A stretch of DNA of 27,043 nt from a virus: IMG/VR virus record IMGVR_UViG_3300021081_000016, positions 1 to 27,043 of that record. One strand, written 5' to 3'. Of this stretch, positions 1 through 21,351 are shown piece after piece (positions within the stretch are counted from its first letter, which is position 1; every line of letters starts with the position of its first letter). The notes under the pieces were generated by a model that saw only the letters and a list, made by a program, of their open reading frames with translations, was not told the DNA's origin and made no database searches. A program made the translations under genes and the position numbers.

Positions 1-3000
1 TAGGTGATGTCGCCCGTGACGAGGATGAAGTCCATGACCTGCGACGGGGGCACGACAATGTTGAACGTGCTTTTCAGCTCGAACGAGACGCCAGGGACGA
101 CATTGACCGCGATGAACGGCTTGGCCTCAAGCTGCACCTCAAAGGATTCCTGCGTGGCGCCGGCCGTCTTCGTCACGTCTACGACGAGGATGCGCTGGTT
201 AGCGGCCGGCGTGATGTTGCTCGTGACCTTGATGTTGGCATTCGTGCCGCCGCCTCCTCCGCCGCCTCCTCCGTCGCCGCCTCCGTCGGGGTCGCCTAGG
301 ACGATGCCGCCGACGCCGACGCCGCCTCCGGGGTCGGTTCCGTGGTACTCGATCCACGCCCGCACGAAGTCCTGCACCTCCAGGCCGCTGTCCAGCACAG
401 TCACATGGCCGTCCGACACGAAGGCCGCGATGTGCTCCAGCCCCATCGTGATGTACGCGGCGTTGCCCGTCTCGCGCCAGCCCTCGACCGCGGCGATCAA
501 GACCGTGTGTTCATTCGGGTGCTCGAAGCCATCCGGGACGTCTACCTCATCCGCGCCAGGCGTCTGCAACGTGATCTGGTAGCTCTTGATGAGGCACTTC
601 TCGCCGAGCATGCTGGCCGGCACATGCGGCCCGGTGGCCACGGCCAGCATCTCGTTCTTCGTGAACTTGGCCAGGTCGAGCCCGCGCCCGCGCGCCGTGA
701 CGCCGTCAGCGTCGGCCTCGGTCAGGTACTGCCGCGCAAACTTGAAGGCGATGGGCCCGAGGCGCGACGTCACGAAGCCGCGCGCCACGAAGTTCTCGCC
801 CGGCAGCTTGTCGCCCAGGTTCTGCGTGCTGCTGGCGAAGTAGCCGCGCCTGCCCTCGCCGGGTGTCGCGCTGTCCCAGCCCGCGCCGCTCGTGTCCACG
901 TCCACGTCGATGAGCTGCGCCGAGTGGTCCGCGATGCGATCCTTCAGCGCGGCCTTCAGCGTCGCCGCCTCGGTCGGGTTCTCGTCCTCGAGGAACTCGG
1001 CCACCAGCGACGCGGCGCGGAAGTATTGGTAGTTGCCGCGCTCGTTGCCCGTGACCGAGTACGTCACCGACGCGAGCACGTCGGCCTCGTCGATGAGCGC
1101 CTCGCGCAGCCGCTCGTCGCCCGTCAGGAGGTAGGCGTCCAGCAGGTTCTCGTCATACGTGTGCTGGTTGTTGTTCACGTCATCGAAGGTGGCCGTCGTG
1201 TGGTCCAGCGTCCCGTCGTTGCTCGCACCCGGGTCGGCCGCGTCAGCGAAGTCGTCCGCGCGCGGGATGGCCCATTCCGCCAGGTAGATCCCGAAGTCCA
1301 CGCCGCGGAAGTATTGCCCGCCGTTGCCGTGCCGGAGGTACTCGTCGAGTAGCCGCGTCTCGCCCTGCGGCGAGTTGTTCTCGCCGCCCGTGTTGGCGGC
1401 GTTGCGGAAGCGCACCACCTGCATGGTCTCGTTGCCGACGGCGATCGTATGCACGATGGACAGCGCGTCGTACACATACTGCTGCTGCTCGAGCGTGGCC
1501 AACTGGTACGGGAACACGCCCGCGACGTCGTACTTGCTGTAGTCCTGCAAGCGCGCGGTGGCTGGGAAGTCGAGGCGCTTGGCTACATCCGCAGGCGGCG
1601 CGACTCCCGGCGAGCCAGAGGCGGCCTGGTGGAACGAGAAGCACGCCTGCCGACTTTCGTGCATGCGCCACGGGAACACGTATTTGTCCGGGTTGTACCG
1701 GCTGAAGACGCCGACGCGCACCGTGCCGTTGTCGTTCACGCCCAGCGACGCCGGCCAGAAGTACGGCATGAGCCGGATCGCGATGGTGCAGCCCGCCAAC
1801 GCGCCGCTGAGGTTCATGTAGCCGTGCGCCGGGAAGCTGGCCTCATTTCCGCTCGGGCCGACGCCCCCGACCGTGACCACGCCGTCGTCGCGCTTTTCCC
1901 ATCCCTTCTGCGTGAAGGCACCGCCGCCGTCCTTGAGAATGTGGGGCTTGTACGATCCGCCCACGCCACCAGTGTCCGTCGTCGGCGCCGAGCTGAACGC
2001 CTGGTAGCAGTAGACGTCCGCAGGCCCGGCGCCGCCGAGGGCCTGATCGGTCTGCGTGCCGGGGTTGCAGCACACCGCGCGGCGGCTGGTGCCCGGGATG
2101 ATCTTCGTCTCCAACTCGACCCAGCCGAGTTGAAGGTGCTTGTTGTCGTCGGTGGACGGAGCGGAGTTGAGGTGGTGCTTGTCGTTCTTGATCGTGAACG
2201 TCACGGCGATGTCGGGCGAGTGGTAGGACGCAGCGAAGCGGCACGAGAATCGCGCAACGGTCACGGTCGGCGCCGCCGAGGAGGCCAGTTCGCCGTCGAT
2301 GCGCAGCACGGCGTGCGCAGGACCGTTCTCCTCGATGGCCCCCGTCGCGTTGGTGCGCACGACCAGCGATGTCGTCCCGTCGGCCATCGTGCCAACGACG
2401 CCGACGCTCGTGCCGGTGGACACAATCGTCTGCACCCCGACGATGACGGTGTCAAAGAGGTTGAAGGCGCCCGTCTTCACAGTGGCCGTGACGAAGCCAG
2501 TTGTGATCGTGTACGTGCCAGCGGACAGGCTGATGATGTCGGTGCCGGTCGAGACGCCGGTGCCGGCCGTCGCGCTGATGTCCAGCGTCGGCGTGCCGCT
2601 CAAAGGGTTCACGTAGGCATGCACCTGCGCCCACTTCACGAAGCCGGACGGCCACTTCTGCAACGTTCGCGCCTGCCAGCGCAGGGGGGGCAGGGGGGCC
2701 GTCAGCAGCAGTGCAGGGCGCCCCCCGGTCTCCGCCACCGTGAAGTCTGGCAGTGGCACGGAGAACGGTACGGTTGTGGCGATGTCAGTCCACGCCGTTA
2801 CGCCGCTGGGCAGCAACTTCTCAAGGTCGATCACGAGCGGCAGGAAGCCGGTGGCCGGCGCGGCTTCCGCGCCGCCAGCGCCGCCCGAGAGCGCCTTGTC
2901 GAAGACGGCGGTGCCCAGCGTGCCGGGCCAGCTGGGCAGCGTGCCGCGGACGTAGTAGTCCATCCGCTGCGAGGCCGGCACCGTGATCCCGGACGTGCCG

Positions 3001-5930
3001 GTGATCTCGAACCACGTTCCAGCGAGGATCTCTGACACGAGATAAATGTTGCCCTCCAGGAGCGCCTCGAACGCGGGGTCCGGCGCTCCCGCGGACTGGT
3101 CCACGTCCACCACCTCGATCCATTTGCCCACCGAGGGCGGGGTCGCGGTCGTGATGCGAATGTTGACGCCACCTCCGCCCGACAGGACCTTGTTCGTCTG
3201 GAGCGTGCCGCGTGCGCCGTAGGCCGGCTTGCCGTGGCCATTGGCGCCGACGTTCCTGGCGACGCCGCTCATCATCGGCGTGTTGGCGAGGATGCCGCGC
3301 TTGATGAAGACGAGGCGCTGGTTTGCCGGCACCGTGATGGCCGTGGTCCCGTCGAGCTCAAACGTATTGGCCGTCACGCCCGTCACGGTGAACGTCTGCG
3401 CCAGCATGGCGGCCTTGAACGCGTTGTTGATCTTGGTGACGTCGCTGACACCGTCCGCGTCGGTGGCCCACACGTTCGTGCAGGTGAGCACGTCGCCGTC
3501 AAACACCCCATGCCCGCCGTGACTCACGCCGGACCCAATGGCGACGGACGAGCCGGTTGACGCGATCTTGACGTTGCTCGGGTTGCCTCCCGTCACGTCG
3601 CTGGAAGACGGGATCATCGGCAGCCCGGTGTTGTTGTGCAGCGCCCGGAACGCGTAGTTGTTCGGCTGTATCTGCCCGAGTCCCATGCCCACCATGCCCG
3701 CCGGTGGCTCGTACTTCGCGCCGTAGGTATAGATCGGGTTGATCGTCCGGTTGACCACTGCGTACACGAAGTCCCCGCCGGACTCCGGCGCGCAGGCGAT
3801 GCTCTCGAAGCTGTCGCCGTCCGTGTTGTGCCGGTGCCATGCCTCGATGCCCTGCTCGGGCAGGTAGGTCAGCGCGACGACGTCGCCGTCCTCGCGCACG
3901 GCGTACACGATGGAGTGGGGCGTCTTCTGGTGGCACCACTGGAGGATGTTCACGCCCTCGAACAGCGAGGGGCAGAACGCCGTGAGGTCGCGCCCCTTCA
4001 TGCCGCCGGCGGCGAGGTCGTACCCGAAGTCGTGGACGAGCCCGCCGTGCGCCTGCACAAAGAGCGCCGTGTTGCGCACGCGCAGCGGCTGCACGGTCGA
4101 CGCGCCAATGGCGTCGCGCGGGTCCGCGTTGATCGCGTCCCAGCGCACAACACCGTCACCGTCGCCCTTGATCTGGATCTCGTCCGCCGACGTGTGCACC
4201 ATCAGGGGCGAGAGCGGCACGAGGTGCCGCACGAGGTTCACGCCCGAACCGATGATCGGGATGTCGAAAGCGTCGTTGTCCAGCAGCGGCTGGCTACGGG
4301 AGAAGTTCAGGATGTCGCCAGAGCGCGAGAGCTTGAGTGTCGCGGGCTCAAGGAGTGAACCGCCCAGAACCAGGCGCTGCTGGTAGATGGTGGCCGTGCG
4401 CGGGTTGCGCGCGGGCCCGCGGCACGGGTCGGTGTAGTGCGGTGGCCCGTCCTGCGAGACGGCCGTCGACTCCTGCGGGCTGTTGTCGTCGGTGTACGTT
4501 GGCGCTGGCGTGCGCGCGATGAACTGATAAGTGCCGGCGAACCGCTTGAAGACCCAGTACTCAAGCGCCTCGGGGACCGGGGACCAACTGAGCTGCACAT
4601 CGCCCGTGCCGACGCCTGCAGCACCACCAGAATCCTCGATGAACGCGCGGCACCACAGCACGTCCATGCCGCCCGTGTAGGTCGGCCCGCTGGTGTCCAC
4701 CACGATGATGTGCGTGGCGTCGATCACCTTCACGGCGAAGACCTTGTTGATGAGCGCCGCGCGCACCTCGGGCTGGTCTGTCCCCACGCCGCTGAACAGG
4801 ACGGCCTTGATCGCGATTTCGTCCCCATCGGCCAGGTTGTGCGCCGCGAGCGTGTCCAGCACCAGGTCCTTCGTCGGCCCGTAGCTGGAGATGCTCGCGA
4901 GCGGCGCGTTGGCGATGCCGCCGATCGTGAGCGGCAACACCATGACGGCGTAGCCGCCCGACGGGACCGTCACGCCCTCGGTGGTATCCAGGTCCAAGTA
5001 CCCCGAAGCGTCCGGTGTGGCGTTGCCGACGTTGAACACCTTGCCCAGCAGCGCCGCCTCGAACGCCGCGTCCGGCGTCGCGCCGATGGCAAAGACGGCC
5101 GTGACCAGCACGTCCTCGTCGACGTCCATGTTGTTCACCGTGGTCACACGCACCTTGCTGCCGCTGCCACCCGACGCCGGGCCGGTGTAGGCGATCGCCG
5201 CGCTGGCAGGCAGCGACTGCTCGAGCTTGCCCTTCTTGATCGCCGTGACCTTGAAGCGGCGTAGCGTGCCCGCACCGGTCGACGTCGATGTGAGCCCATT
5301 GGGCGCCGCGATGGGCGGCAGGAAGTCCACGGGCTGCAGCGTCCACGTCACCGCGCCGAAACGCTTCAGCGCATACGGCCGGTGTTTCGGGTGGAATAGA
5401 AACGTGACGTCGGCGTAGCCGGTCGCGACGAGCTCGAAGACCTCGGTGTCTTCGTATGGCGTCGGGATCTCGTAGAGCGCGTCGCTCAGCACGGCCGTGA
5501 GCGGGTACCACCAGTCCGCGCTGGTCAGCGGTGTTTTGTCCAGGCCCGCCTGGATGCAGTAGTAGTAGATGCCGACGCTCGTGACGAGATCGCCGACGTT
5601 GTAGAGCTTCGTGGCGCTGTAGGCCGGCGCGTCGCCCGACGTCGCCACGATCTGCGCGCCCTCATTCAGAAAGCGCAGCGTGCGGTCGCCCCACGCGAGC
5701 ATGGCGCTGTCGTTGCCGCCGAACACGAAGGGCATGAGGCGCGTGATCCCGCTGCCCTTGGTCGTGGCCGCGTACTCGAAGGCGGCGCGGTTCTCCAGGC
5801 CGCCCGAGCGCATCACATTGAAGTTGAGCGCGTCGAGGAGTCCGTAGACGCGCTTGGCCTGGTCTGTGCGCGCCCACACGGACGGGCTCACGATCCCGCC
5901 GGCGAAGCTGCGCTGCGTCGGCGCGGCCAT
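1..5930 (-). CDS. Giant tail nozzle protein (T7 gp12-like) fused to YetA/PcRGLX lyase-like domain; 3' end off window
   Basis: I read this frame codon by codon: it is open from ATG 5930, which overlaps the stop of the upstream gene by one base (TGATG), to the left edge, at least 1,976 codons. Residues 1 to about 790 resemble the T7 gp12 tail nozzle (N-terminal MAAPTQRSFAGGIVSPSV, later RTATIYQQRLVLGG and a beta-propeller-like region). Repeated beta modules of 70-90 residues (near 251-337, 354-421, 801-879, 916-996, 1888-1976) share an FxLxxxxxITVPxxQR-like ending and resemble E1 FCCH-type domains. Residues about 1029-1861 match the layout of the exo-rhamnogalacturonan lyase/YetA family: RIFT-barrel start (QKWPSGFVKW), beta-sandwich with WRMHE near 1423, and helical toroid (HTYDENLLDAYLLTGDE near 1590-1609). 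A glycine-rich linker lies near 1863-1897. Nozzle role is confident; lyase assignment is by eye. The domain would probably act on a surface polysaccharide at the tail tip. Confidence 0.85.
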   Translation of the reverse strand, partial: MAAPTQRSFAGGIVSPSVWARTDQAKRVYGLLDALNFNVMRSGGLENRAAFEYAATTKGSGITRLMPFVFGGNDSAMLAWGDRTLRFLNEGAQIVATSGDAPAYSATKLYNVGDLVTSVGIYYYCIQAGLDKTPLTSADWWYPLTAVLSDALYEIPTPYEDTEVFELVATGYADVTFLFHPKHRPYALKRFGAVTWTLQPVDFLPPIAAPNGLTSTSTGAGTLRRFKVTAIKKGKLEQSLPASAAIAYTGPASGGSGSKVRVTTVNNMDVDEDVLVTAVFAIGATPDAAFEAALLGKVFNVGNATPDASGYLDLDTTEGVTVPSGGYAVMVLPLTIGGIANAPLASISSYGPTKDLVLDTLAAHNLADGDEIAIKAVLFSGVGTDQPEVRAALINKVFAVKVIDATHIIVVDTSGPTYTGGMDVLWCRAFIEDSGGAAGVGTGDVQLSWSPVPEALEYWVFKRFAGTYQFIARTPAPTYTDDNSPQESTAVSQDGPPHYTDPCRGPARNPRTATIYQQRLVLGGSLLEPATLKLSRSGDILNFSRSQPLLDNDAFDIPIIGSGVNLVRHLVPLSPLMVHTSADEIQIKGDGDGVVRWDAINADPRDAIGASTVQPLRVRNTALFVQAHGGLVHDFGYDLAAGGMKGRDLTAFCPSLFEGVNILQWCHQKTPHSIVYAVREDGDVVALTYLPEQGIEAWHRHNTDGDSFESIACAPESGGDFVYAVVNRTINPIYTYGAKYEPPAGMVGMGLGQIQPNNYAFRALHNNTGLPMIPSSSDVTGGNPSNVKIASTGSSVAIGSGVSHGGHGVFDGDVLTCTNVWATDADGVSDVTKINNAFKAAMLAQTFTVTGVTANTFELDGTTAITVPANQRLVFIKRGILANTPMMSGVARNVGANGHGKPAYGARGTLQTNKVLSGGGGVNIRITTATPPSVGKWIEVVDVDQSAGAPDPAFEALLEGNIYLVSEILAGTWFEITGTSGITVPASQRMDYYVRGTLPSWPGTLGTAVFDKALSGGAGGAEAAPATGFLPLVIDLEKLLPSGVTAWTDIATTVPFSVPLPDFTVAETGGRPALLLTAPLPPLRWQARTLQKWPSGFVKWAQVHAYVNPLSGTPTLDISATAGTGVSTGTDIISLSAGTYTITTGFVTATVKTGAFNLFDTVIVGVQTIVSTGTSVGVVGTMADGTTSLVVRTNATGAIEENGPAHAVLRIDGELASSAAPTVTVARFSCRFAASYHSPDIAVTFTIKNDKHHLNSAPSTDDNKHLQLGWVELETKIIPGTSRRAVCCNPGTQTDQALGGAGPADVYCYQAFSSAPTTDTGGVGGSYKPHILKDGGGAFTQKGWEKRDDGVVTVGGVGPSGNEASFPAHGYMNLSGALAGCTIAIRLMPYFWPASLGVNDNGTVRVGVFSRYNPDKYVFPWRMHESRQACFSFHQAASGSPGVAPPADVAKRLDFPATARLQDYSKYDVAGVFPYQLATLEQQQYVYDALSIVHTIAVGNETMQVVRFRNAANTGGENNSPQGETRLLDEYLRHGNGGQYFRGVDFGIYLAEWAIPRADDFADAADPGASNDGTLDHTTATFDDVNNNQHTYDENLLDAYLLTGDERLREALIDEADVLASVTYSVTGNERGNYQYFRAASLVAEFLEDENPTEAATLKAALKDRIADHSAQLIDVDVDTSGAGWDSATPGEGRRGYFASSTQNLGDKLPGENFVARGFVTSRLGPIAFKFARQYLTEADADGVTARGRGLDLAKFTKNEMLAVATGPHVPASMLGEKCLIKSYQITLQTPGADEVDVPDGFEHPNEHTVLIAAVEGWRETGNAAYITMGLEHIAAFVSDGHVTVLDSGLEVQDFVRAWIEYHGTDPGGGVGVGGIVLGDPDGGGDGGGGGGGGGTNANIKVTSNITPAANQRILVVDVTKTAGATQESFEVQLEAKPFIAVNVVPGVSFELKSTFNIVVPPSQVMDFILVTGDIT

Positions 5931-6565
5931 CAGCTCCCCCGGCGCGCGTCGAGGAACATCGACGGCAGGTTGTCGGTGGTGGGCTCAACCTCGATGCCGG
6001 CCGCTTCGCGCGCGCGTGCCACAAACTCGTTCGCGAGCACCGTCTGCTGGCGCGCGAGTTCCTTGTCGGACCGAAGCGGCATCGCCAGCATGGACGCGAG
6101 GTAGTGCGAGAGCGCCATCCCGAAGGTCGCGTCCCAGTTGCTCGCCAACGTCACCGCGTTGCTCATGATGAGCGCGCGTGCCTCAGGCTCGTCGGTCATC
6201 ACCGAAACGGCGCCGGTGTCGTCCCGCCGCACCTGCATCGGGATCTTATTCGCGCGCCGGCCGGCGCGGCTCATGATCTTCCAGACGCGCGCGGCCGTCG
6301 ACGGGTAGCGGTAGCTGTAGAGCCACTCGTTGGCCCAGGTCTGCGTGCCGTCGGCCGTCTCCTGCAACGTCAGCGCGGAGCTCGATATGCCGAAGGTCCA
6401 CGGCGCAGCCTGCAGCAACACGTCGCGGCAGGTCGCGAACCAGAGGATGACCTGGGCCTCGGTGTCGTCCTCGCCGTCGAGGAGCGCGATCGACAGGCCC
6501 GGCAGCACCTTTGAGATGCCGACGAGCCCGAGAGCCCGGTTCGCAATCTCGATCTCGGTGGCCAT
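5930..6565 (-). CDS. Tail tubular protein A (T7 gp11-like adaptor)
   Basis: The 211-residue product resembles the T7 gp11 / tail tubular protein A family that joins portal to nozzle in short-tailed phages. Visible family signs are the N-terminal segment EIEIANRALGLVGI and the conserved stretch CRDVLLQAAPWTFG near residues 46-60, typical of the 'ARDxLLRxxPWxFA' signature, and the length fits the family (about 190-220). The ATG at 6565 has AGAGG about 5 nt upstream. The stop overlaps the start of the nozzle gene by one base, so the two tail-tube proteins are translationally coupled. A GC-rich hairpin sits just upstream, between this gene and the preceding one, which may attenuate transcription between head and tail genes. 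Family assignment is by pattern, not alignment. Confidence 0.85.
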   Translation of the reverse strand: MATEIEIANRALGLVGISKVLPGLSIALLDGEDDTEAQVILWFATCRDVLLQAAPWTFGISSSALTLQETADGTQTWANEWLYSYRYPSTAARVWKIMSRAGRRANKIPMQVRRDDTGAVSVMTDEPEARALIMSNAVTLASNWDATFGMALSHYLASMLAMPLRSDKELARQQTVLANEFVARAREAAGIEVEPTTDNLPSMFLDARRGS

Positions 6566-6584
6566 GTCTACCTCTCAAGCAGAA

Positions 6585-6621
6585 AGGCCCCGGCGACCGG
6601 GTGTGCCGGACACCGGGGCCT
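6585..6621 (-). terminator. GC-rich hairpin, weak terminator or attenuator
   Basis: AGGCCCCGG (6585-6593) and CCGGGGCCT (6613-6621) form a perfect 9-bp stem around a 19-nt loop. On the minus strand the stem is followed by TTTCTGCTT, a poor but recognisable U-rich tail. It lies between the head-side gene 6644-7000 and the tail tubular A gene, where partial termination could set head-to-tail expression ratios. Confidence 0.5.
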
Positions 6622-6643
6622 GCGTTCCAAGTCGGGAGTTCCG

Positions 6644-7000
6644 TCAGGGCGTGGTCTCGTTGGTCTCGAAGTTGAAGCCCTTGCGCAGGCGCGGGCCGCC
6701 GCCGGGTGCGGTGTTGGCCACGACCTTCGGCGGCTTCGGGATGGAGGCGGGGTCCGCCGTGGCGGGATCGACGAGCTCGGTGCCAGTGGGCAGGCGGAAC
6801 ACCGCGCCGTCGATCGTCGTGTTGAACTTCGTGGCCTTGTCGCCGGGCTTGACGCGGTCACTGTCGCGCGGCGTGTGCCAGAAGAGGTCGCCACACACCT
6901 CGCCAGGGCCAAGCATGTAGTGCCCCTTCCAGCGGCGCTCGATCGCGCGCAGCAGGAGCGGCTTGGTGGGCGACTTGGCTGGCGCTTCGACTGTGGGCAT
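6644..7000 (-). CDS. Unknown virion-region protein
   Basis: A 118-residue protein with no family that I recognise. It is basic at the start (KSPTKPLLLRAIERRWKGHY), has a short Gly/Trp-containing middle (GPGEVCGDLFWHTPRD), and a proline-rich C-terminus (PASIPKPPKVV) ending in a probably flexible tail. No membrane segment or signal peptide is seen. The ATG at 7000 is preceded by AGGAGA about 8 nt upstream. It lies between the cement protein and tail tubular protein A, a place where BPP-1-like phages keep small head-completion or structural proteins, so a structural or head-tail joining role is likely but is inferred from position only. Confidence 0.75.
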   Translation of the reverse strand: MPTVEAPAKSPTKPLLLRAIERRWKGHYMLGPGEVCGDLFWHTPRDSDRVKPGDKATKFNTTIDGAVFRLPTGTELVDPATADPASIPKPPKVVANTAPGGGPRLRKGFNFETNETTP

Positions 7001-7026
7001 CGAGCTGTCTCCTCAGCGAGTGGGTG

Positions 7027-7545
7027 TCAGTAGGACAGGCCGTTGGCGTAGATGAAGGGCTTGCCGGCCTTGCTGTGGTCGATCCAGATCGTGACCGCGC
7101 CGGCCGAGGACGTCTGCACGCCGGTGACGCACAGGAAGCCGATGTACCGCAGCCACGTCTTGTCGTCCGGCGGCACGATGAACTCGATCAGGTTGCCGAT
7201 GGCGAGCAGGTCGGCGCCACCCGATGGCGACGCGCCGTCCGTGTACGTCTCGCTCGCCCAATGCACGCGCGGCGAGGACGTGAGGGTCGTGGTCGCGGCC
7301 GAGACGAGCTGGAAGATGACCGTGCCATCGGTGCTGGCCTGCACAAGCGCCGTGGTGACGAGGATGTGGCCGAACAGCGGTTCCCCCACGCCCATGTTGC
7401 GGCCCTGGCCGGCGCCCGCCACAACGGCGCCGCTCGCGGGCACCGTCGCTGACGTGTCGAAGTTGTCGCCGATGACCGCCGTGCCGGCGGCCGCCGCGAT
7501 GGACGCCGCGTTGGCAAACTTGTTCTGGCTGTCGATGTAGGCCAT
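7027..7545 (-). CDS. Capsid cement/decoration protein, Bbp16-like
   Basis: The 172-residue protein looks like the Bbp16 cement (decoration) proteins of BPP-1-type phages, which bind the outside of the capsid lattice and stabilise it. Supporting segments are an Ala-rich N-terminus followed by a small beta domain with GRNMGVGEPLFGHILV near residues 48-63, a run of Thr/Ser beta strands (TVIFQLVSAATTTLTSS), and a strand ending in VTIWIDHS. It follows directly after the major capsid gene, the usual place for a cement protein. The ATG at 7545 has AGAGGA upstream with somewhat long spacing of about 9 nt. No cysteines form an obvious metal site. Confidence 0.75.
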   Translation of the reverse strand: MAYIDSQNKFANAASIAAAAGTAVIGDNFDTSATVPASGAVVAGAGQGRNMGVGEPLFGHILVTTALVQASTDGTVIFQLVSAATTTLTSSPRVHWASETYTDGASPSGGADLLAIGNLIEFIVPPDDKTWLRYIGFLCVTGVQTSSAGAVTIWIDHSKAGKPFIYANGLSY

Positions 7546-7571
7546 TGGTCGGTTTCCTCTAGGTCAGGCGG

Positions 7572-8627
7572 TCACGGGAAGTCGGACAGCAGGACCGGCG
7601 CGTCGTCTTCGGTGTTAACCAGGATCTGGTCGCAGATGCGAACCTGGACGCCGTGCACGCTCAGGATCGGGATCTGATTTGTGCCGGCTGGCGCGTCGAA
7701 GTGGATCTGCGAGCCGCCCTTGACCGCCGACTGCCGGCGAATCCAGGTGCGCGTGCGGCGCGTGCAGTAGAAGCGGAAGTTCGGTCCGGGGTTCTGGATG
7801 CGCTCGATGGCGTCGGCGATCAGGTCGATCAGGTATGTCGAGGCCGTGGACGCCTGCGAGCCAGTGCCGAGCTGTTGGAACGTGAGATCGCTGACGTCGA
7901 TGTTCGCGATGCGAACGACGCTCATGTAGTTCTTGACCGCGAGCCCGCACTTCCACTTGAGCTCGTCTTCGTAGGCCCAGAAGCCCGTACCGACAGCTCC
8001 GGCGGTCACGCTCGTGGGCTGCTTCTGGATGCCCTTGTCGTTGACTTCGAGGCCGGCCTGCGTGCCCTTCGGGTAGAGACCGCAAACCTTGTCCTCGTCC
8101 CAATCGATGCCCCAGACGGACGTGTTGTCTGTGCCCGTGCCGCCGGCGTTGAGGACCTGCGAGCTGACGTTGCCGGTGATCGCGTTGTAGCGGATCGTGA
8201 GGCCGTTGAACTGGCGCTCGTCGAGCTGGTTGGTGCCGTAGAGCATCAGGTACTGGAAGTACTGCATGAAGCCCTGCAGCTTCGCCTTGCGCTCATTCAT
8301 GCGGATCTTGCCGAGGTTCCCGCCGTGCGGGACATCGACGTCGATCACACCGGCGTCGGTCATGAGCGAGACGCCGTCCTCGATCTGCGCGACTGCGCTC
8401 TTCGTCGGCGGCGTGCCCTCATACAGCCGGCGGAGCACTGGCTGCGGGATGCCAGTGCGCACGACCGTGATGTTGCTCGTGTCCTTGTTCGTCGGGTACC
8501 ACGGGATGTCCTGCGCCATCTCGTTGGTCTGGTCGAGCAGCTCGGCCGGATTGGCGATGGTCCCATCGGGGAGCCGCATCTTCTCGATATCGGCAGTGGT
8601 GACGTAGGCTGCGCCAAGAGTGGCCAT
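7572..8627 (-). CDS. Major capsid protein, epsilon15 gp7/BPP-1 type
   Basis: This 351-residue protein is the best candidate for the main shell subunit (HK97-type fold of the epsilon15 gp7 / Bordetella BPP-1 branch). Length, place after the scaffold gene and before a cement gene, and segments such as DIPWYPTNKDTSNITVV, NLGKIRMNERKAKLQGFMQY and the C-terminal PILSVHGVQVRICDQI fit that branch. No prohead protease is seen nearby, in line with scaffolds that are not processed from a capsid delta domain. GGAG lies about 9 nt before ATG 8627. It ends in DDAPVLLSDFP. Which capsid subfamily it belongs to would be settled by a profile search. Confidence 0.85.
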   Translation of the reverse strand: MATLGAAYVTTADIEKMRLPDGTIANPAELLDQTNEMAQDIPWYPTNKDTSNITVVRTGIPQPVLRRLYEGTPPTKSAVAQIEDGVSLMTDAGVIDVDVPHGGNLGKIRMNERKAKLQGFMQYFQYLMLYGTNQLDERQFNGLTIRYNAITGNVSSQVLNAGGTGTDNTSVWGIDWDEDKVCGLYPKGTQAGLEVNDKGIQKQPTSVTAGAVGTGFWAYEDELKWKCGLAVKNYMSVVRIANIDVSDLTFQQLGTGSQASTASTYLIDLIADAIERIQNPGPNFRFYCTRRTRTWIRRQSAVKGGSQIHFDAPAGTNQIPILSVHGVQVRICDQILVNTEDDAPVLLSDFP

Positions 8628-8647
8628 GGATCAGGTCTCCGGGTTGC

Positions 8648-9301
8648 TCATTCGAAGCCGACTTCCTTGCGCTGGGCAGGCGTGAGCGCGGCCCATGTCG
8701 CGGGGAAAGCCTCGGCGTAGGACAGCGACTTGGCTGGTGACTGCGTCCCGGCCACCGCGGGCTTCTCAGCGAAGGCCGCGCCGACCTCCGCGAGGAAGCG
8801 CGCGAAGCGCGGGTAGGCGATCCAGTTGGTCGCGCGCAGTTCCTCTCCGAGTTCCTTGCCGGAGGGGAAGCGCTGCAGCGCGGCGTCCCGGTTCTTGATC
8901 GTCACGTCGTACTTCGCGCCGCCGAACGCGGGGTCGTTGCGCAGCTCCGCGTCCCACGCGGCTGACTGGCTGCGGAAGCGCGCGATGTTCGCGGACTCGC
9001 GCTTGAGCGTGGCCTGCGCCTCGGCGGGCGTCATGTTCTCGGACTTGGCCCACTCCGCGACGCTGGCGACGTAGGCTGCGTCAAAACCGCTGCCGTCGGG
9101 CGCAGTCAACTTGCTGTAGTCGTGCGCGACGGGCGCGACCGTGGGCGCAACCGACGGCAGGCCGGCGGCGGGCGCTGCGGCGGTGACCGGCGCAGGTGCG
9201 CTCGGCGCGGGCGCTGCGGCGGCCGGTGGCGCAACGGGAGGGGCGGAAGCAGCCGGCGCAGCAGGCGCTTCGGGGGCCGAAGTCGGAGGCGTCATGGCCA
9301 T
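8648..9301 (-). CDS. Capsid scaffolding protein
   Basis: A 217-residue protein directly upstream of the major capsid gene. Residues 1 to about 58 are almost entirely Ala, Pro, Val and Ser (disordered), followed by a charged, mostly helical half: DYSKLTAPDGSGFDAAY, EWAKSENMTPAEAQATLKRE and FPSGKELGEELRATNW. The disordered Ala/Pro N-terminus plus helical C-terminus, and the 'W-G/A...' style segments typical of phage 'peptidase/scaffold' proteins of BPP-1-like phages, point to an internal scaffold that guides shell assembly and leaves before packaging. A second ATG lies two codons downstream (9295), and either could be the start. No protease catalytic triad is visible. Confidence 0.75.
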   Translation of the reverse strand: MAMTPPTSAPEAPAAPAASAPPVAPPAAAAPAPSAPAPVTAAAPAAGLPSVAPTVAPVAHDYSKLTAPDGSGFDAAYVASVAEWAKSENMTPAEAQATLKRESANIARFRSQSAAWDAELRNDPAFGGAKYDVTIKNRDAALQRFPSGKELGEELRATNWIAYPRFARFLAEVGAAFAEKPAVAGTQSPAKSLSYAEAFPATWAALTPAQRKEVGFE

Positions 9302-9318
9302 CCGACAACCCGCACAAC

Positions 9319-9522
9319 CTAGCGAGTCAAGGCTTTCCTGAGTATTTCCGCGACGGCCGCTGAGTGTGTGATGCCGGCGCGACCCGCCACGCGCGCCAGC
9401 GCGACGTACAGCTCGTCCTCAATCCAGGCGCTGACATGCCGGTTTTTCCGCTTGCCGACGGCGGCCCGCCGGAAGCCCATGGAGGAGACCACGCCGGGCT
9501 GTGCGGGTCGTGGCGGGCTCAC
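9319..9522 (-). CDS. Small ribbon-helix-helix-like protein
   Basis: A short protein of 67 residues if it starts at GTG 9522, which overlaps the stop of the upstream gene as GTGA, or 53 residues if it starts at ATG 9480 (MGFRRAAVGKRKNRHVSAWI). The C-terminal part KNRHVSAWIEDELYVALARVAGRAGITHSAAVAEILRKAL reads in pieces as a ribbon-helix-helix fold: a short strand with alternating residues, a helix, a turn at GIT, and a second helix. Such proteins bind DNA as dimers; here, inside the structural operon, it could be a late regulator or a structural accessory. The assignment rests on pattern only. Confidence 0.6.
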   Translation of the reverse strand: MSPPRPAQPGVVSSMGFRRAAVGKRKNRHVSAWIEDELYVALARVAGRAGITHSAAVAEILRKALTR

Positions 9523-9803
9523 GCGCTGGCGCCCCCGCGACGCGCCTGCGCGTCCGCGATGTCTTGCTGCAGCAGCATCACGTAGCCGGTGGGGTCGGCG
9601 GCCTCGATCTGCGCGCGGATCTTGCGCCCGGCCTCGCGCAGGCCCTCGAGCTTCAGCACGGTCAGCACGTCGGCGCCGGGCTCGTGCGTACCCTTCTCCA
9701 TCTCGCAAATCTTGAACAGGATCACGCGCAGCACATCGCAGCCCTCGGGCGTGCGCAGCACTGCGCGCCATGCGGCGGCGGCTTTGCCGGTCTGCGGGGT
9801 CAC
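9519..9803 (-). CDS. Bbp19-like phage protein
   Basis: I take GTG 9803 as start because it overlaps the upstream stop (GTGA) and has GGTGGG just before it; this gives 94 residues. An ATG at 9836 would extend it by 11. The sequence AWRAVLRTPEGCDVLRVILFKICEMEKGT followed (in a second segment) by KLEGLREAGRKIRAQIEAADP matches the layout of the Bbp19 domain found next to capsid genes of BPP-1-type phages ('TPxGxxVLxxL...EGxRxxxxxIxxxI'). Function in the virion is not established for the family. It lies between an unknown protein and the RHH-like gene, just ahead of scaffold and capsid genes. Confidence 0.7.
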   Translation of the reverse strand: MTPQTGKAAAAWRAVLRTPEGCDVLRVILFKICEMEKGTHEPGADVLTVLKLEGLREAGRKIRAQIEAADPTGYVMLLQQDIADAQARRGGASA

Positions 9804-10243
9804 CCCACCATGCTCGGGTGGAAGCGGTAGCCCCACGCGGCGATCTGGCAGACGAACGTGCCGGTCAGCGCCGACGTGAGCACCGATACCGCCAGGCCGG
9901 TGCTCGCGGCGGAGGAGTCGATGACGAAGCCGTCGGTTGCGTCCAGCGGCAGCGAGCTAACGTTCGTGCCGTGCGCGTCGTCGAGTCGCAGCGCCTGGAA
10001 GCTCGTGCTCATGTCGACATCGTCGATCTTGATGATCGCCGTGGCTGTCTCGCCGGCTGGCATGACTCCGGCGCGCGACAGCATTGTCCACTGGACGATG
10101 CGCGTCTTGAAGCCGGCACCAAAGATCCAGCTTGGTTGATTGGAGATGTCCGGCACGCCAAGCACAGTCGTCGTGGCCTGTGCGCACGATGCCGACCACA
10201 CGCAGAGGAGTCCGAACGGCGGAATCACGCCACCCTTTGGCAT
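9800..10243 (-). CDS. Unknown protein with signal-like N-terminus, in head module
   Basis: The 147-residue product starts at ATG 10243, sharing one base with the portal stop (TGATG). Residues about 8-21 are hydrophobic and end in SCAQA, which looks like a signal peptide with an AQA cleavage site; that would be odd for a virion protein, so it may simply be a hydrophobic strand. The rest is rich in Ser, Thr, Ala and short beta strands (TATAIIKIDDVDMSTSFQAL, GTFVCQIAAWGY), like a beta-sandwich decoration or head-fibre protein. No homologue recognised. Position between portal and the Bbp19-like gene suggests a head-associated role. Confidence 0.65.
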   Translation of the reverse strand: MPKGGVIPPFGLLCVWSASCAQATTTVLGVPDISNQPSWIFGAGFKTRIVQWTMLSRAGVMPAGETATAIIKIDDVDMSTSFQALRLDDAHGTNVSSLPLDATDGFVIDSSAASTGLAVSVLTSALTGTFVCQIAAWGYRFHPSMVG

Positions 10244-11940
10244 CACGCACCTCCAGCGCTGGCGAGCATGCGACTGCCAGCTGTGTCTTGATTCATGTCC
10301 ACGTTGGACAGCTTGCTCGCTGTGTCGGCCGCCTGCATCGCCTGCTGCACCGCCTGTTGCCTGGCGATCTCCTTGGCGCGCGCCTGGCGCAACGCGGCCG
10401 TCTCCTCCGGAGACCGGATGATCTTCGGCGGCACGCCCTGCAAGCGCCCGGCCGTCCGCGCGTACTCGTCCCAATCCACGTTATCCAGCACGCCCGGCAC
10501 GGCGGGCGCCATCTCCAGCATCTGCGCGCCGAACCGGATCACCGGCGAGAGGCCGACCGACCGCTGCGCGGACGCCATCTTCGACAGCAGGCGGACGTGA
10601 ATGCTCTTGCCCTGCAGGATCGGCGGTGGCGGCTTGACCAGTCCGCGCCGCCAGCGGATCCCGAAGTGTCGGCGCACATACGGGTCGTGGAAGTCGTCGC
10701 TGTAGCGCGTGACCACGCTGCCCATGAGCGAGTTGCGCTCGTCCTGCTTGGCGTAGACCGCGGCGGCCGTGTCCTTCTGCGCTCGCAGGTCATCGAGCAT
10801 CGGCGAGACCACGTCGGCATAGAACGCCTCGCGGATCGATGCCGTGCAGTCCTTCATCGCGTCCAGGATGGCCACCAGCGCCTGGGCCTGGACCTCGAAG
10901 ATCGGCTGCGTGCGTGCCGACGCGACCGTGCTCGCCGGCTCCTCGGTCACGCCGCCGGGCATCAGGTCGATGCCACCGTCGCGGATGCCTGGTGGTCCTG
11001 ATACCGCTGGCCGGCTCATGTACGCGAGCAGCCGCAGGCGCTCCTCCGCGAGCTTCTGCAGCTCCAAGATGTCGTCCATGGCCGTGATGCCGGGGCAGTT
11101 GGTTCCGTACAGGTCGCCCGGCGCCACTTCCCAGCGCGGCACCATGATCGGGAACTCGTCGTACCCGCCCTCGCGGAGAACGCCGCCCTTCTGCTCCACA
11201 TCGCTGACGCTGCGGCACCAGTAGCACTCAAGGAAGCGCTTCGACGCCAGCAGGTACTGTGGGTTCCAGTCCTCGTTGGGATACACGAGGTGGGCCACGT
11301 CCCAGAAGCTGTTGTATTGCTTCAGGTCGTAGTCGCGGCGAATCACGCGCGGCAGCTTCTCGTAGGTGAACTTCTCCACCATCTGCGCCGTGTTGAGCCG
11401 GAAGTCGCGCGAAACCTCGTTGACCTGGTCGTTCTCGGACACACCGATGGCGTAGCTGCCGATGGGCAGCGCCTTGCAGTGGATCACCGTCTCGAGCGAC
11501 TCCTCCACGAACAGCGCGCCCGTGCCGAACTTGATGCCGTCGCCGACGGTGAGATCGGCTTCGGTGTAGAAGTTGCTGCGGTCGTCGTCCGAGAGCTGGG
11601 CGTCGCGCTCCTCGCGCAGCCAGATGGCCGCCTGCTTGTCGGCATCGATCTTCGGGTCGCCTGTCGTCAGCTCGTACCAGTCCGAGACAGGCGACAGCAG
11701 CTCGCTGGCCATGATCGCGCGCAGGCGCCGCTGCGCCTGGCCGGCGACGTTGCGGATGATCCTCGTTGAGCGCCGGTCGCCCCGATTGTTGTCCGTGAGG
11801 CTGAAGCGCACGCGGAATGGGTCGATGATGTCGCCGAGCGTGCGCCACGTCGACTCGTAGCTGCCACGGTCGTAGAGCCGTGCCGCGCGCCGCTCCTCGA
11901 GCCACTGGAACTTGCTCTTGCCGGAGAGCGCCTTAGCCAC
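10243..11940 (-). CDS. Portal protein (T7-type head-tail connector)
   Basis: The 565-residue protein matches the T7 gp8-like head-tail connector family, the twelve-fold ring at the capsid vertex through which DNA is packaged. Typical segments are EERRAARLYDRGSYESTWRTL and LGDIIDPFRVRF near the N-terminus, GDGIKFGTGALFVEE near residues 130-145, PRWEVAPGDLYGTNCPG near 268-284, and the Gln/Ala-rich helical C-terminus (KEIARQQAVQQAMQAADT). Length fits (about 530-570). The start is GTG 11940, overlapping the stop of the upstream gene by 8 nt; the ribosome site is weak, so coupling to the upstream gene is likely. The stop overlaps the next start by one base. Confidence 0.92.
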   Translation of the reverse strand: MAKALSGKSKFQWLEERRAARLYDRGSYESTWRTLGDIIDPFRVRFSLTDNNRGDRRSTRIIRNVAGQAQRRLRAIMASELLSPVSDWYELTTGDPKIDADKQAAIWLREERDAQLSDDDRSNFYTEADLTVGDGIKFGTGALFVEESLETVIHCKALPIGSYAIGVSENDQVNEVSRDFRLNTAQMVEKFTYEKLPRVIRRDYDLKQYNSFWDVAHLVYPNEDWNPQYLLASKRFLECYWCRSVSDVEQKGGVLREGGYDEFPIMVPRWEVAPGDLYGTNCPGITAMDDILELQKLAEERLRLLAYMSRPAVSGPPGIRDGGIDLMPGGVTEEPASTVASARTQPIFEVQAQALVAILDAMKDCTASIREAFYADVVSPMLDDLRAQKDTAAAVYAKQDERNSLMGSVVTRYSDDFHDPYVRRHFGIRWRRGLVKPPPPILQGKSIHVRLLSKMASAQRSVGLSPVIRFGAQMLEMAPAVPGVLDNVDWDEYARTAGRLQGVPPKIIRSPEETAALRQARAKEIARQQAVQQAMQAADTASKLSNVDMNQDTAGSRMLASAGGA

Positions 11941-12818: not shown

Positions 12819-14324
12819 TCACCTCCCAGAGGCCCAGCCTTCACGGCCGAGCGGGTCGAACTCGGTCCGTGCTGCACTACGCAACACGGGACTCGCGATA
12901 CCGCGTGCCACTCGGGCATCGCGCGACGACACCGGCACCATCCAGTGCTGCGCCAGCGAGTCCGCCCTGTTGGGCGAGCGCTTGAGCCGCGTCTTGGTGT
13001 CGCTCTTGTCCTCAAGATAGAACCTGTCGTTGCGCTCGTTGACCTCGCCCGTGACGGCTAGTAACTCCTCGCGCAGGATCGGGTCCTTCGGCAGCGCCAC
13101 GTTGTCCCGGATCGCCTCGGCCATCTTCCACCAGCCCTCGGCCCGCAGGTTGCCGAAGCGCTGGTTTGCCGGCGCGCTGCTGTAGACGACCGGGATCACA
13201 CGGTGCCCGCGCGCCTTCAGCGGCTCGATCCACGACCAGCCGTGCCCGCCGGTGCCATCCACGAGCATCGCGTCCACACCACCCCACGCGCTGGCTACTT
13301 CGGCCATCCATGAGGCTCCGCTCGATCCTGTCTGCCCACCGCGCTCCATGATCGGATGCACGAAGCAACCCTGTCGGCAGCAGACAGCGCTCGGGTCGAT
13401 CTCGCGCCCCACGTCGGCGCTCACGACCTTGGCGGCCCAATCGAAGTCCGACTTCTGCGGCGACCGGTTCATCGCACGGTCCACGTCCTCCTCAGTGAGG
13501 AGCGCTGAGATGTCGCCATCCGGGAAGCGGCCGAGCACGTAGGCGCGGACCCACGCATCATCACGCCCGCGCGTGGCCGCTGCGATCTTCTGGCGGGCCC
13601 ACTCCACGTCGACGCGCGGCGTGCGCTTGGGATCGTCCGGGTCGGCCGTGCACTCGTAGATCGTCCACTGAGCGCGCAGCTCACCCTGCGTAACCGCGAA
13701 TAGCATGCCCTTGCGGGAGAGCGGGTTGCCGGCCTGCTGGATGCGCAGCACTCGCGCCGTGGATCCAGCTTGGTCAGCGACGTTGATGAGCTGCGGCGGC
13801 ACCGCGCCCGACTCGTCGATCTGCTCCAACACGTACCACTCGTGCAGGCCGGAGAGCGTGCGGCCAAGGGTCTGCTCGTCGGCGTCCTTCGGATAGCCGG
13901 TAGCTTGCAGCCACCACGTTCCTGGATGGTCGCGCGCGTAGATGCGCTCGCTGTTGATCTCGAACAGCCTGCTCATCAGCGGCGAAGCGCTGATCCAGCG
14001 CCGGTACTCGGTCCACAGGTGGGACTCAAGGTTCTCGCGCGTGACGGCGAGGCATTTCCCGATGGGGTGGTGGTCCTTGTCGCCGCGCGTCGTGAGGAAG
14101 TTCAGGCCACACCAGACCATCGTTGCAGACTTGCCGTTGCCGGTCGGGCCTTGGAACGACTGGCGCACGATGGGAGCGTCCGATCCGAACTCCATGAGCG
14201 CGTCGGCCTGCTGCGGGTCAGGCTCGATCCCCGGCCAGACTTGGCGCACAAACTGCACGGGGTTGCGACGCCACGCGCGGATCGCTTCGGCGACGGGGGT
14301 GCCGGCGAACGGGTTGTCAGTCAC
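12819..14324 (-). CDS. terL: Terminase large subunit (DNA-packaging ATPase/nuclease)
   Basis: The 501-residue protein is the motor that pumps DNA into the prohead and cuts concatemers. Its Walker A is GPTGNGKS at residues 59-66, with a Walker B-like VLEQIDES near 165-172 (acidic pair Asp170-Glu171). The C-terminal RNase H-like nuclease is shown by SADVGREID (Asp304), AMLVDGTGG (Asp356) and NRADSLAQ (Asp455), which would hold two metal ions. Length is in the usual range. The start ATG 14324 overlaps the end of the previous gene by 8 bases. The small terminase candidate is at 15544-15849, separated by four small genes, an unusually wide spacing. Confidence 0.93.
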   Translation of the reverse strand: MTDNPFAGTPVAEAIRAWRRNPVQFVRQVWPGIEPDPQQADALMEFGSDAPIVRQSFQGPTGNGKSATMVWCGLNFLTTRGDKDHHPIGKCLAVTRENLESHLWTEYRRWISASPLMSRLFEINSERIYARDHPGTWWLQATGYPKDADEQTLGRTLSGLHEWYVLEQIDESGAVPPQLINVADQAGSTARVLRIQQAGNPLSRKGMLFAVTQGELRAQWTIYECTADPDDPKRTPRVDVEWARQKIAAATRGRDDAWVRAYVLGRFPDGDISALLTEEDVDRAMNRSPQKSDFDWAAKVVSADVGREIDPSAVCCRQGCFVHPIMERGGQTGSSGASWMAEVASAWGGVDAMLVDGTGGHGWSWIEPLKARGHRVIPVVYSSAPANQRFGNLRAEGWWKMAEAIRDNVALPKDPILREELLAVTGEVNERNDRFYLEDKSDTKTRLKRSPNRADSLAQHWMVPVSSRDARVARGIASPVLRSAARTEFDPLGREGWASGR

Positions 14325-14676
14325 CGAGGCCGACCCTCGCAGCGATCCACGCCCGGAGGCGGCGCCACCACGGCAGCGCGTCGGCGAGCGGCACCACGCG
14401 CACGCCCGGCGAGAGCGGCAGCATCATCTCGCTGCAGACGTGGGCCGCGGCGTACTCCTCAAGCGCACTGCGCACCCGCTGGGAGTAAGTCTCCCGGAAC
14501 CGGCTGACGTCGGGCACCCTGTGAACCATGTCCACATCGACGATGGAGTCCGCCTCAAACCGGTGCCGGCCGCACGGCGCGACGACGCTCCAGGTGTCGA
14601 CGAAGGCGCGGTACCGCCCGACGCCGCAGGGCCCGCGCAGCCACTGCTCGCCCATGTCGATGTGCGTGAGCTTCAC
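14317..14676 (-). CDS. Unknown protein upstream of large terminase
   Basis: A 119-residue product if begun at GTG 14676, which overlaps the upstream stop as GTGA; ATG 14655 (MGEQWLRGPCG) would give 112. Contents: GRYRAFVDTWSVVAPCGRHRF looks like a small beta region with two cysteines, then SIVDVDMVHRVPDVSRFRE, then a helical segment and a Trp/Arg-rich end (ALPWWRRLRAWIAARVGLG), which could be an amphipathic helix at a membrane or DNA. No family recognised. It ends 8 nt into the large-terminase gene, so it may couple terminase translation. Confidence 0.65.
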   Translation of the reverse strand: MKLTHIDMGEQWLRGPCGVGRYRAFVDTWSVVAPCGRHRFEADSIVDVDMVHRVPDVSRFRETYSQRVRSALEEYAAAHVCSEMMLPLSPGVRVVPLADALPWWRRLRAWIAARVGLGD

Positions 14677-14951
14677 GCCGGGCTGCCGTTGGCGTCGGTG
14701 GGGGACTGCGGGGATTCTGGCTCTGTGTGCAGTAGGCCGGCATCGCCCATCAGCGCCTGCTCGAATACGTCGCGCGGCATGCGGATGATGAACACGTCTC
14801 CGTCCTGCTTGATCGGGCACAGGAGGATCGCCGTAATACGCGCCCGCTCGCGAGCTAGCGCGTCCTTGAGCCGCTCGGGCGCGGCCGGGCGCGTGGCGGG
14901 CGTGAGCGGCGGCGGCGCCGGCAGCCGGATCGGCCCGTCGTGGTCGCTCAT
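14673..14951 (-). CDS. Unknown small protein
   Basis: A 92-residue product starting at ATG 14951, sharing one base with the stop of the gene before it (TGATG). The N-terminus is proline/alanine-rich (PIRLPAPPPLTPATRP), followed by a helix LKDALARERARITAILLC and a short strand with DGDVFIIRMPRDVFEQALMG, ending in an acidic Ser/Pro tail. No function recognised. It is one of four small, tightly overlapped genes between the putative small and large terminase subunits. Confidence 0.65.
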   Translation of the reverse strand: MSDHDGPIRLPAPPPLTPATRPAAPERLKDALARERARITAILLCPIKQDGDVFIIRMPRDVFEQALMGDAGLLHTEPESPQSPTDANGSPA

Positions 14952-15163
14952 CACGTGGCCGCCAGCGCGCGGGACTCGGCGGCGCGCAACTCGGCCTCGG
15001 CGAGCCTGTCGATTGCCGCGTCGAAGCGCGCGCCAGCCTCGGCGCAGGCGAGCGCGAGCGGGTCGCATGGCGCGTCTGGCACCAATGACGCGCATGGGTA
15101 GAGCGCGATGCCGGCATCCACGAGCGACTGGATGAACAGCATGTGCTTTTCGATGGGACTCAT
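14951..15163 (-). CDS. Unknown small helical protein
   Basis: Seventy residues from ATG 15163, which overlaps the upstream stop as ATGA. The sequence SPIEKHMLFIQSLVDAGIALY is followed by a Cys-containing loop and a long alanine/glutamate-rich helix (CAEAGARFDAAIDRLAEAEL). A longer frame extends upstream, but that part is the shadow of the small membrane gene and lacks a coupled start. Function unknown. Confidence 0.6.
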   Translation of the reverse strand: MSPIEKHMLFIQSLVDAGIALYPCASLVPDAPCDPLALACAEAGARFDAAIDRLAEAELRAAESRALAAT

Positions 15164-20259: not shown

Positions 20260-20519
20260 GCAACAAGCCCCCCGCCGACAACGCCACGCGGCCCTGCACG
20301 CGCTGCGGCAGGCCGCGCAGCACCACCCGCCGCCGCTGCCTCTGCCTGCCGTGCTGGAACAAGTACCTGACCGAGCGCAAGGCCGCCCGGAAGGAGCGCC
20401 GTCGGTCGCACGCCTTGGCCGTGAGCCGGCGGCCGGCCCAGCGCGTGCCGCGAGACCTGAAGGTGGGCAGCACGGCGGGCGTTGACGCGCCCGGATTGGG
20501 GACCGCCGATGGCTGGTGA
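20256..20519 (+). CDS. Small basic zinc-finger protein
   Basis: Eighty-seven residues from ATG 20256 (ATGA overlap with rusA). CTRCGRPRSTTRRRCLCLPC has cysteines spaced CxxC...CxCxxC at residues 14-33, a likely zinc site, followed by a very basic helix (KYLTERKAARKERRR). It should bind nucleic acid. It overlaps the start of the replication gene by 11 bases, and small zinc proteins in this position are common in lambdoid-like replication modules but have no assigned function. Confidence 0.65.
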   Translation: MSNKPPADNATRPCTRCGRPRSTTRRRCLCLPCWNKYLTERKAARKERRRSHALAVSRRPAQRVPRDLKVGSTAGVDAPGLGTADGW

Positions 20520-21351
20520 CTGGATGCCCGCGCGCCTCGATCTGCACGAGGACCCCGCCGTCGTGTCGATGGCGCTGGCCCTGGCGCAGACCGAGAACGA
20601 GATCGCGGGTGGACTCATGCGTGTGTGGGCGTGGTTCTCCCGCCAGTCACGTAACGGTCACGCTGCCGTCACGCCCGCGTACCTCGACGGTCTCGCGCGC
20701 GTCACAGGACTGTGCGTTGCGATGTCGCGCGTCGGGTGGCTAGACATCGACAGCGAGGGCGGTTGCGCCATCCCGAAGTGGGATCGGTGGTTCTCGCAGG
20801 CGGCCAAGAAACGCCTGAATGCTGCCCGCAGACAGAAGGCGAAGCGCGAGCGCGAGCGCAATTCCGGACGTCACGCTGCCGTCACGCCGCCGTCACGCAC
20901 GAGCGTGACCAGAGAAGAGAAGAGAAGAGAAGAGAAGAAACGGAAGGACAAAGACGTTCCGCCGCCTGCGGCGTCGGGCCCGCCTGAGCCACCCGCGGCG
21001 AAGCCTCCACGGAAGCCGTCCGGGCCGGTCCAGGAGCTGCTCTCGTGGTTCCGTGACGAGTACCTCGCGACGCAGGGCACCCCCTACGGCATCACGGCCC
21101 GCGACGGCGTCGCAGCGACGCGGCTGCTGAAGCTGATCGACCCGGAGACGGCGCGCTCGAGGGCGACACGCTGGCTGACGTCGGTGGACCCGTGGATCTC
21201 GAGCACGGACCGTGGCTTCTGCCTGTTCGCTTCCAAGGCCAACTTGCCCGAGCTGCGCGGGATCGCGCCGGCCGTAGTGGGCGGGCGTGGCCGCGACCCG
21301 CTGGCTGGGGTCAAAGAACTTGCCCGCCGCCTAGACCAGGAGCCATCGTGA
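20509..21351 (+). CDS. Replication initiator, lambda O-like (winged-helix N-terminus)
   Basis: The 280-residue protein (ATG 20509, GGGGA about 7 nt upstream) starts WMPARLDLHEDPAVVSMALAL, with EIAGGLMRVWAWFSRQSRNG and VGWLDIDSEGGCAIPKWDRWF, the winged-helix domain common in phage replication initiators. A charged linker (REEKRREEK) and Pro-rich stretch then lead to a C-terminal domain (LLSWFRDEYLATQGTPYG, RATRWLTSVDPWI) of the kind that contacts the helicase loader. Next comes a G39P-like loader, as in lambda O-P and SPP1 G38P-G39P. Tandem 11-bp repeats lie inside the gene (listed separately), as iterons do in lambda O, so the protein probably binds its own gene. Confidence 0.8.
   Translation: MAGDWMPARLDLHEDPAVVSMALALAQTENEIAGGLMRVWAWFSRQSRNGHAAVTPAYLDGLARVTGLCVAMSRVGWLDIDSEGGCAIPKWDRWFSQAAKKRLNAARRQKAKRERERNSGRHAAVTPPSRTSVTREEKRREEKKRKDKDVPPPAASGPPEPPAAKPPRKPSGPVQELLSWFRDEYLATQGTPYGITARDGVAATRLLKLIDPETARSRATRWLTSVDPWISSTDRGFCLFASKANLPELRGIAPAVVGGRGRDPLAGVKELARRLDQEPS
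20646..20678 (+). repeat. Three tandem 11-bp iterons, cluster A
   Basis: GTCACGTAACG (20646-20656), GTCACGCTGCC (20657-20667) and GTCACGCCCGC (20668-20678) are contiguous. All start GTCACG. They lie inside the codons for residues 46-57 of the initiator. Together with cluster B they could be initiator binding sites. Confidence 0.65.
20870..20902 (+). repeat. Three tandem 11-bp iterons, cluster B
   Basis: GTCACGCTGCC (20870-20880), GTCACGCCGCC (20881-20891) and GTCACGCACGA (20892-20902), followed by an inverted half GCGTGAC (20903-20909). The first unit is identical to the middle unit of cluster A. A purine-only tract starts right after. Confidence 0.7.
20911..20951 (+). other. Purine-only tract, candidate origin unwinding element
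   Basis: From 20911 the strand is almost wholly A and G in a 5-bp rhythm (AGAGA repeated about five times), then AAACGGAAGGACAAAGA. It is the most A-rich stretch of the GC-rich operon and lies just after the iterons, as the unwinding element does in lambda ori. It encodes the charged REEKRREEK linker. Confidence 0.55.

Follow-up and report, generated by a model that had tools for sequence, protein, structure and literature searches.

The window analysed here, the 27,043 nucleotides of IMG/VR virus record IMGVR_UViG_3300021081_000016, carries virion genes in the order portal, protease, capsid, adaptor and nozzle, as found in epsilon15, BPP-1 and Carin1. The portal, a head-to-tail connecting protein, is encoded on the minus strand at 10243..11940 (PF12236, 4e-102; phrog_332, 3e-109), followed on the same strand by a major capsid protein of the epsilon15 GP7 type at 7572..8627 (PF20911, 1.7e-82) and a head-tail adaptor of the tail tubular A type at 5930..6565 (phrog_394, 1e-22), which lies directly upstream of the nozzle gene with a stop/start overlap. 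Compared with the capsids encoded near the nozzle homologues that we retrieved, the capsid protein (7572-8627) reaches about 39% identity at most, and as a query against IMG/VR it recovered only the twin contig described below; by this capsid comparison the phage is placed on a deep branch. Comparison of the scanned window proteins, those at 12819-14324 and 14317-15117 among them, with Pfam and PHROGs identified no terminase large subunit, and the sole match of the protein at 12819-14324 was phrog_5902, of unknown function. On the opposite strand, a replication initiation protein and an HNH endonuclease are present at 20482-21351 and 24681-25181.

The frame that follows the adaptor runs on the minus strand from an ATG at 5930 to position 3, comprising 1,976 codons without a stop. 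Because the record ends at the window edge, the frame is open at its 3' end and the C-terminus lies beyond reach, and the chain encoded at 3..5930 is thus at least 1,976 residues long. A random series of as many codons with this base composition would be predicted to contain about 42 stops (P ~5e-19). Across the entire frame, joints included, GC at third codon positions stays steady at 0.85-0.95, and codons are used much as in the capsid and portal genes, so that nothing indicates a shift from one half to the other. Congruent with this, a twin contig, IMGVR_UViG_3300018084_000008 (32,682 bases), is 100% identical over window positions 1538-27043 (25.5 kb), continues 7,176 bases past the right end of the window, and reads the junction of nozzle and enzyme in one frame of 1,464 codons. 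The twin speaks against a random assembly chimera, although it is not fully independent evidence, since the source population may be the same; a search for a longer contig extending past window position 1 returned none. A preliminary description of this DNA had reported one uninterrupted frame of at least 1,976 codons joining a nozzle to a PcRGLX/YetA-like module. Both observations are confirmed, with neither stop nor frameshift between the halves in the window or in the twin; that description had left out the strand, five internal repeats and the truncation by the window. A nozzle and a PL26-like module are fused in a single frame.

Residues 1-735 (3726..5930, minus strand) gave matches to phrog_376, annotated 'tail protein' (5e-104), and to the 'Tail Nozzle' structure of Carin1 (PDB 8ck1, 8ck1_A; 6e-54), and align with 12 phage nozzles. 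Judged from sequence, this part is a tail nozzle of the epsilon15/BPP-1/Carin1 type, with an N-terminal platform part and a beta-propeller region assigned by homology. With epsilon15 (gp12), BPP-1 (bbp13) and Carin1 (gp36, 8ck1) it shares an N-terminal RSFAGG..SPS..AR motif, the propeller core and the gene order after the adaptor, but those nozzles measure 681-830 residues against at least 1,976 for the fusion chain. The most conserved core, residues 506-731 (3738..4415, minus strand), is 29-43% identical to 11 phage nozzles and ends in VNRTIN, at which point the homologues go on with G..KRYIER. The earlier assignment of the N-terminal 790 residues to a T7 gp12 nozzle holds as far as a nozzle is concerned, for residues 1-735 and as borne out by the profile matches to phrog_376 and 8ck1, whereas recognisable T7 gp12 sequence was not found. 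Scans with the nozzle for close relatives returned only the twin contig and one relative of 25% identity. Many scFv matches in the PDB search were dismissed as artefacts of Gly linkers. Separately, some of the records carry peculiarities: PQ492659 (L019, Limnohabitans phage DC33) is classed as Inoviridae yet encodes an epsilon15-like podophage nozzle, so that its taxonomy line looks wrong, the nozzle gene of Pseudomonas phage UFJF_PfDIW6 (L018, 7562-10031) appears as two overlapping CDS, and that of PH444 (L020) is cut short, the latter two probably through sequencing frameshifts or decay.

Residues 1029-1862 (345..2846, minus strand) form the second recognisable unit, supported by a homologue in another phage contig (L149, see below), PF21345, profile-profile alignment and a reciprocal genome search. 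PF21345, the central beta-sandwich of PcRGLX, scored 26.3-28.8 bits against a curated cut-off of 23.5, with the match restricted to positions 5-127 of the 360 in the profile; of 14 genomes scanned with it as controls, B. subtilis and Bacteroides ihuae alone gave matches. Profile search yielded no match of the module to PF19501 (N-terminal RIFT barrel), nor to PF21346 (C-terminal catalytic toroid) at E 10. We assembled a PL26 reference set of six full-length proteins from Pseudomonadota, found via PF21345, whose profile matches PcRGLX in the PDB (5xq3, 5xqg, 5xqj, 5xqo) with about 1,029 bits. Against this PL26 profile the single-sequence query reached an E of 3e-6, and the query together with three viral homologues 4e-14 (probability 98.2, about 200 columns, residues ~1046-1252). 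In the reciprocal direction, the viral profile hit five places in 398 Pseudomonadota genomes, all of them PL26 genes, in five of the six genomes found by PF21345.

The significantly homologous part, residues 1046-1252 (2175..2795, minus strand), corresponds to domain 1 of PcRGLX plus the initial third of its domain 2, and carries the motifs WPSGFVKW and ENGPAHAV, at about 21-25% identity to PL26 in the aligned part. Further on, the rest of domain 2 is collinear (GGvaiGlrdFWqryPtaLdi in PL26, AGCTIAIRLMPYFWPASLGV in the module), as is the toroid part (QHW...YYLTADER in PL26, QHT...YLLTGDER in the module), neither being significant alone. In the toroid-like part, QH (His1590) followed by YLLTGDER, at 1101..1175 on the minus strand, is a candidate active-site segment. 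The three-part layout proposed earlier thus stands for the beta-sandwich, with PF21345 the only one of the three Pfam families above its cut-off, and for the RIFT barrel through the profile-profile alignment and a WP.G..KW motif, while the toroid is represented by a weak collinear motif (P 0.004 at YYLTGDER, profile-profile). Since the catalytic toroid family PF21346 is without a match, we regard the module as a distant relative of PcRGLX/YetA (PL26), rather than a member of the lyase family proper, and as a putative lyase. PcRGLX and YetA are moreover free-standing enzymes, whereas the module here is embedded in a virion protein. AlphaFold models were unusable (pLDDT 29 for the module with 4 sequences, 32 for the nozzle as a single sequence).

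Self-comparison of the chain uncovered five repeats of roughly 80 residues, all on the minus strand. Repeat 1 (residues 252-340, 4911..5177) and a weak copy, repeat 2 (residues 365-430, 4641..4838), lie inside the nozzle half; repeats 3 (residues 780-890, 3261..3593) and 4 (residues 918-1003, 2922..3179) form the spacer before the enzyme module, and repeat 5 (residues 1890-1976, 3..263) follows the module and is cut by the window edge. Two short elements complete this layout, a junction peptide YEPPAGMV (residues 740-747, 3690..3713) and a Gly-rich linker after the module (residues 1884-1895, 246..281), both likewise on the minus strand. The occurrence of one repeat family in the nozzle half and on both sides of the module ties the halves together and would provide spacers for an arm. 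In other nozzles a small domain separates the propeller from the C-terminal domain; we tested whether the five repeats correspond to it and rejected the idea, and their comparison with Pfam E1_FCCH gave no match.

Direct search with the module returned no match in phage records, plasmid records or bacterial contigs, and a scan for close relatives recovered only the twin contig. Alignment-based scans of IMG/VR, on the other hand, delivered three relatives (L148/L151, L150 and L149), the first two being PL26-like proteins of 1,450-1,620 residues on virus contigs. The one in IMGVR_UViG_3300045931_000039 (L150, 247-4968; 1,573 residues) is located upstream of terminase genes and harbours an E1_FCCH-like domain inside its toroid part. 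The third, L149 (IMGVR_UViG_3300044464_000110), is a siphophage contig of 51 kb that encodes head morphogenesis, scaffold, capsid, Ad1 and neck1 proteins, and where a single frame of 1,917 residues (5634-11387) is placed between the neck1 and tail tube genes. Its N-terminus is esterase-like, with a GxSxG-type motif and no significant Pfam match, its tail terminator is recognised by PF13554 (63.6 bits) and phrog_179 (1e-40), and its C-terminus is a GH26-like domain. The PL module it contains is 65% identical to the nozzle-fused one over the full length, and the peptide YEPP[AT]GMV ahead of the module is common to both fusions. Between the two modules dN/dS is about 0.4, and the toroid part is the best conserved (70%). 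The same module is therefore found on the tail terminator of an unrelated siphophage, there in the company of esterase-like and GH26-like ends, pointing to a transferable enzyme module that core tail proteins can carry. In MW202657 (L158, 3164-4804), a frame with a related tail terminator is already 546 residues long, indicating that terminator genes of this group tolerate large additions.

These data bear on two alternatives. That an assembly chimera or a missed frameshift brought together genes for a nozzle and for an unrelated enzyme could be argued from the layout, which is absent from other nozzles, and from the perfect identity of the two contigs, which may share reads. We consider this scarcely credible, however, as the same junction occurs in two records with steady GC3 and codon use, members of a single repeat family lie on either side of it, and the same module was independently fused to a tail protein in L149. 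Less easily set aside, but still unlikely, is that the module retained the PL26 fold and lost catalysis, serving as a carbohydrate-binding adhesin on a covalent receptor-binding arm. That significant similarity to PL26 extends no further than domain 1 and the opening third of domain 2, and that PF21346 gave no match, would fit such an adhesin; on the contrary, it is precisely the toroid part that is best conserved between the two phages, with the QH...YLLTGDER segment kept, and the L149 module sits beside a GH26-like domain, that is, in an enzyme array. A putative lyase remains our preferred assignment.

Next we considered where on the nozzle the module is inserted, using 121 frames that contain the propeller, taken from phage records, IMG/VR and bacterial genomes, 113 of which have a complete enough end. 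After the propeller, related nozzles continue with G..KRYIER, an optional segment and then a GLxHLEG domain of about 160 residues, the profile of which matches 117 of the 121 frames. The variable segment of the family is the one between propeller end and GLxHLEG domain, spanning 40-145 residues in 105 homologues, a short segment being the rule in this family though no requirement for belonging to it; the entire post-propeller stretch is about 183-310 residues in the 113 frames, and the longest frame has 1,093 residues. The fusion chain, by comparison, continues for at least 1,241 residues after the propeller, and among the nozzle homologues compared it alone has an arm of this kind. Neither HMM nor profile-profile search picked up the GLxHLEG domain in residues 1-1976, the known part of this gene, which is cut by the window edge.

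The C-terminal nozzle domain thus either resumes beyond the window or was replaced. Replacement, in which the chain would end in enzyme and repeats, is compatible with catalysis and draws on the lack of a trace of the domain in 1,241 residues. It nevertheless appears rather improbable to us, since the window cuts the gene before its end and almost all homologues possess the domain, as does 9efk, a distant nozzle of solved structure that retains both ends; in T7, furthermore, the C-terminal platform contacts the adaptor (PMC6702177), and loss of the equivalent domain would be costly. Most likely the conserved C-terminal domain resumes downstream of the window.

Alignment with nozzle homologues sets the insertion site directly after the propeller end. 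In the T7 gp12 hexamer, the tip is formed by a loop inserted in the propeller, whereas the propeller end leads via the fibre dock to the C-terminal platform (PMC6702177), and SU10 follows the same nozzle plan (PMC9509320). As sequence search did not lead to T7 gp12, we infer the position of the module from this published topology; by analogy, it would occupy the site of the fibre dock, on the tail flank. The preliminary description had put the module at the nozzle tip, a location that does not agree with a module following the propeller end.

Aggregated, the findings make it fairly probable that this phage possesses an epsilon15-like nozzle with a post-propeller arm, bearing a PL26-like lyase that thins host polysaccharide. 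We infer hexameric display on the flank, catalysis, a surface polysaccharide as substrate and a resumed C-terminal domain from the layout and its relatives. The arm would consist, in order after the propeller, of beta repeats as spacer, the PL26/PcRGLX-like module, the Gly linker and a further repeat. As the chain is part of the nozzle, and nozzles are hexamers by analogy, about six module copies would be carried per virion. With the arm leaving at the T7-type fibre-dock position, the module would be held on the outer tail flank, either instead of a docked tailspike or next to one, and during approach it may thin the surface polysaccharide by beta-elimination, allowing the nozzle to reach the envelope. 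An activity packaged or ejected to act inside the envelope, rather than a surface depolymerase, seems very improbable to us: many podophage core proteins do carry wall-degrading domains, such as the structural lysozymes that related phages encode downstream of the nozzle, but nozzles stay outside the cell, and PL26-type lyases, as is known for the family, act on rhamnogalacturonan and not on peptidoglycan.

Almost all phage depolymerases are separate proteins, typically trimeric and with an N-terminal anchor (PMC6872550, PMC5701251), in agreement with the preliminary description, which had held that they are normally separate tailspikes. The fusion resembles tailspike depolymerases (LKA1 gp49 lyase, K1F endosialidase, Klebsiella RBPs) in presenting a predicted polysaccharide-degrading domain on the tail; those spikes, however, are encoded by separate genes with an N-terminal virion anchor, whereas the module here lies inside the nozzle frame. 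Swapping of trimeric depolymerase spikes sets host range. There are also claims of enzyme activity in tail tubular proteins of the ordinary kind (PMC5440376, PMC7582827). The reported dual-function tail tubular protein A of KP32 (PMC5440376) likewise represents an enzyme claim for a core tail protein, yet it is an ordinary adaptor-type protein, unlike the whole extra enzyme-family module described here. The literature searched yielded no account of a nozzle or terminator with a built-in PL26-like module, and a PL26-type phage depolymerase was found neither there nor in 50,697 phage records.

More tentatively, we propose a mobile PL26-like cassette that enters hexameric rings, namely the podophage nozzle at its fibre dock and the siphophage terminator at the neck, with six covalent lyases instead of docked trimeric tailspikes and with the nozzle C-terminal domain resuming. 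The presence of the same module on two unrelated tail proteins indicates that core tail proteins accept large enzyme modules, and the nozzle-fused lyase-like module suggests that phages can equip their tails with enzymes in a manner that has received little notice. A lyase module in a nozzle would escape annotation aimed at spikes and fibres only, and a lyase in the DNA-gating ring would fix enzyme stoichiometry and geometry relative to the ejection channel.
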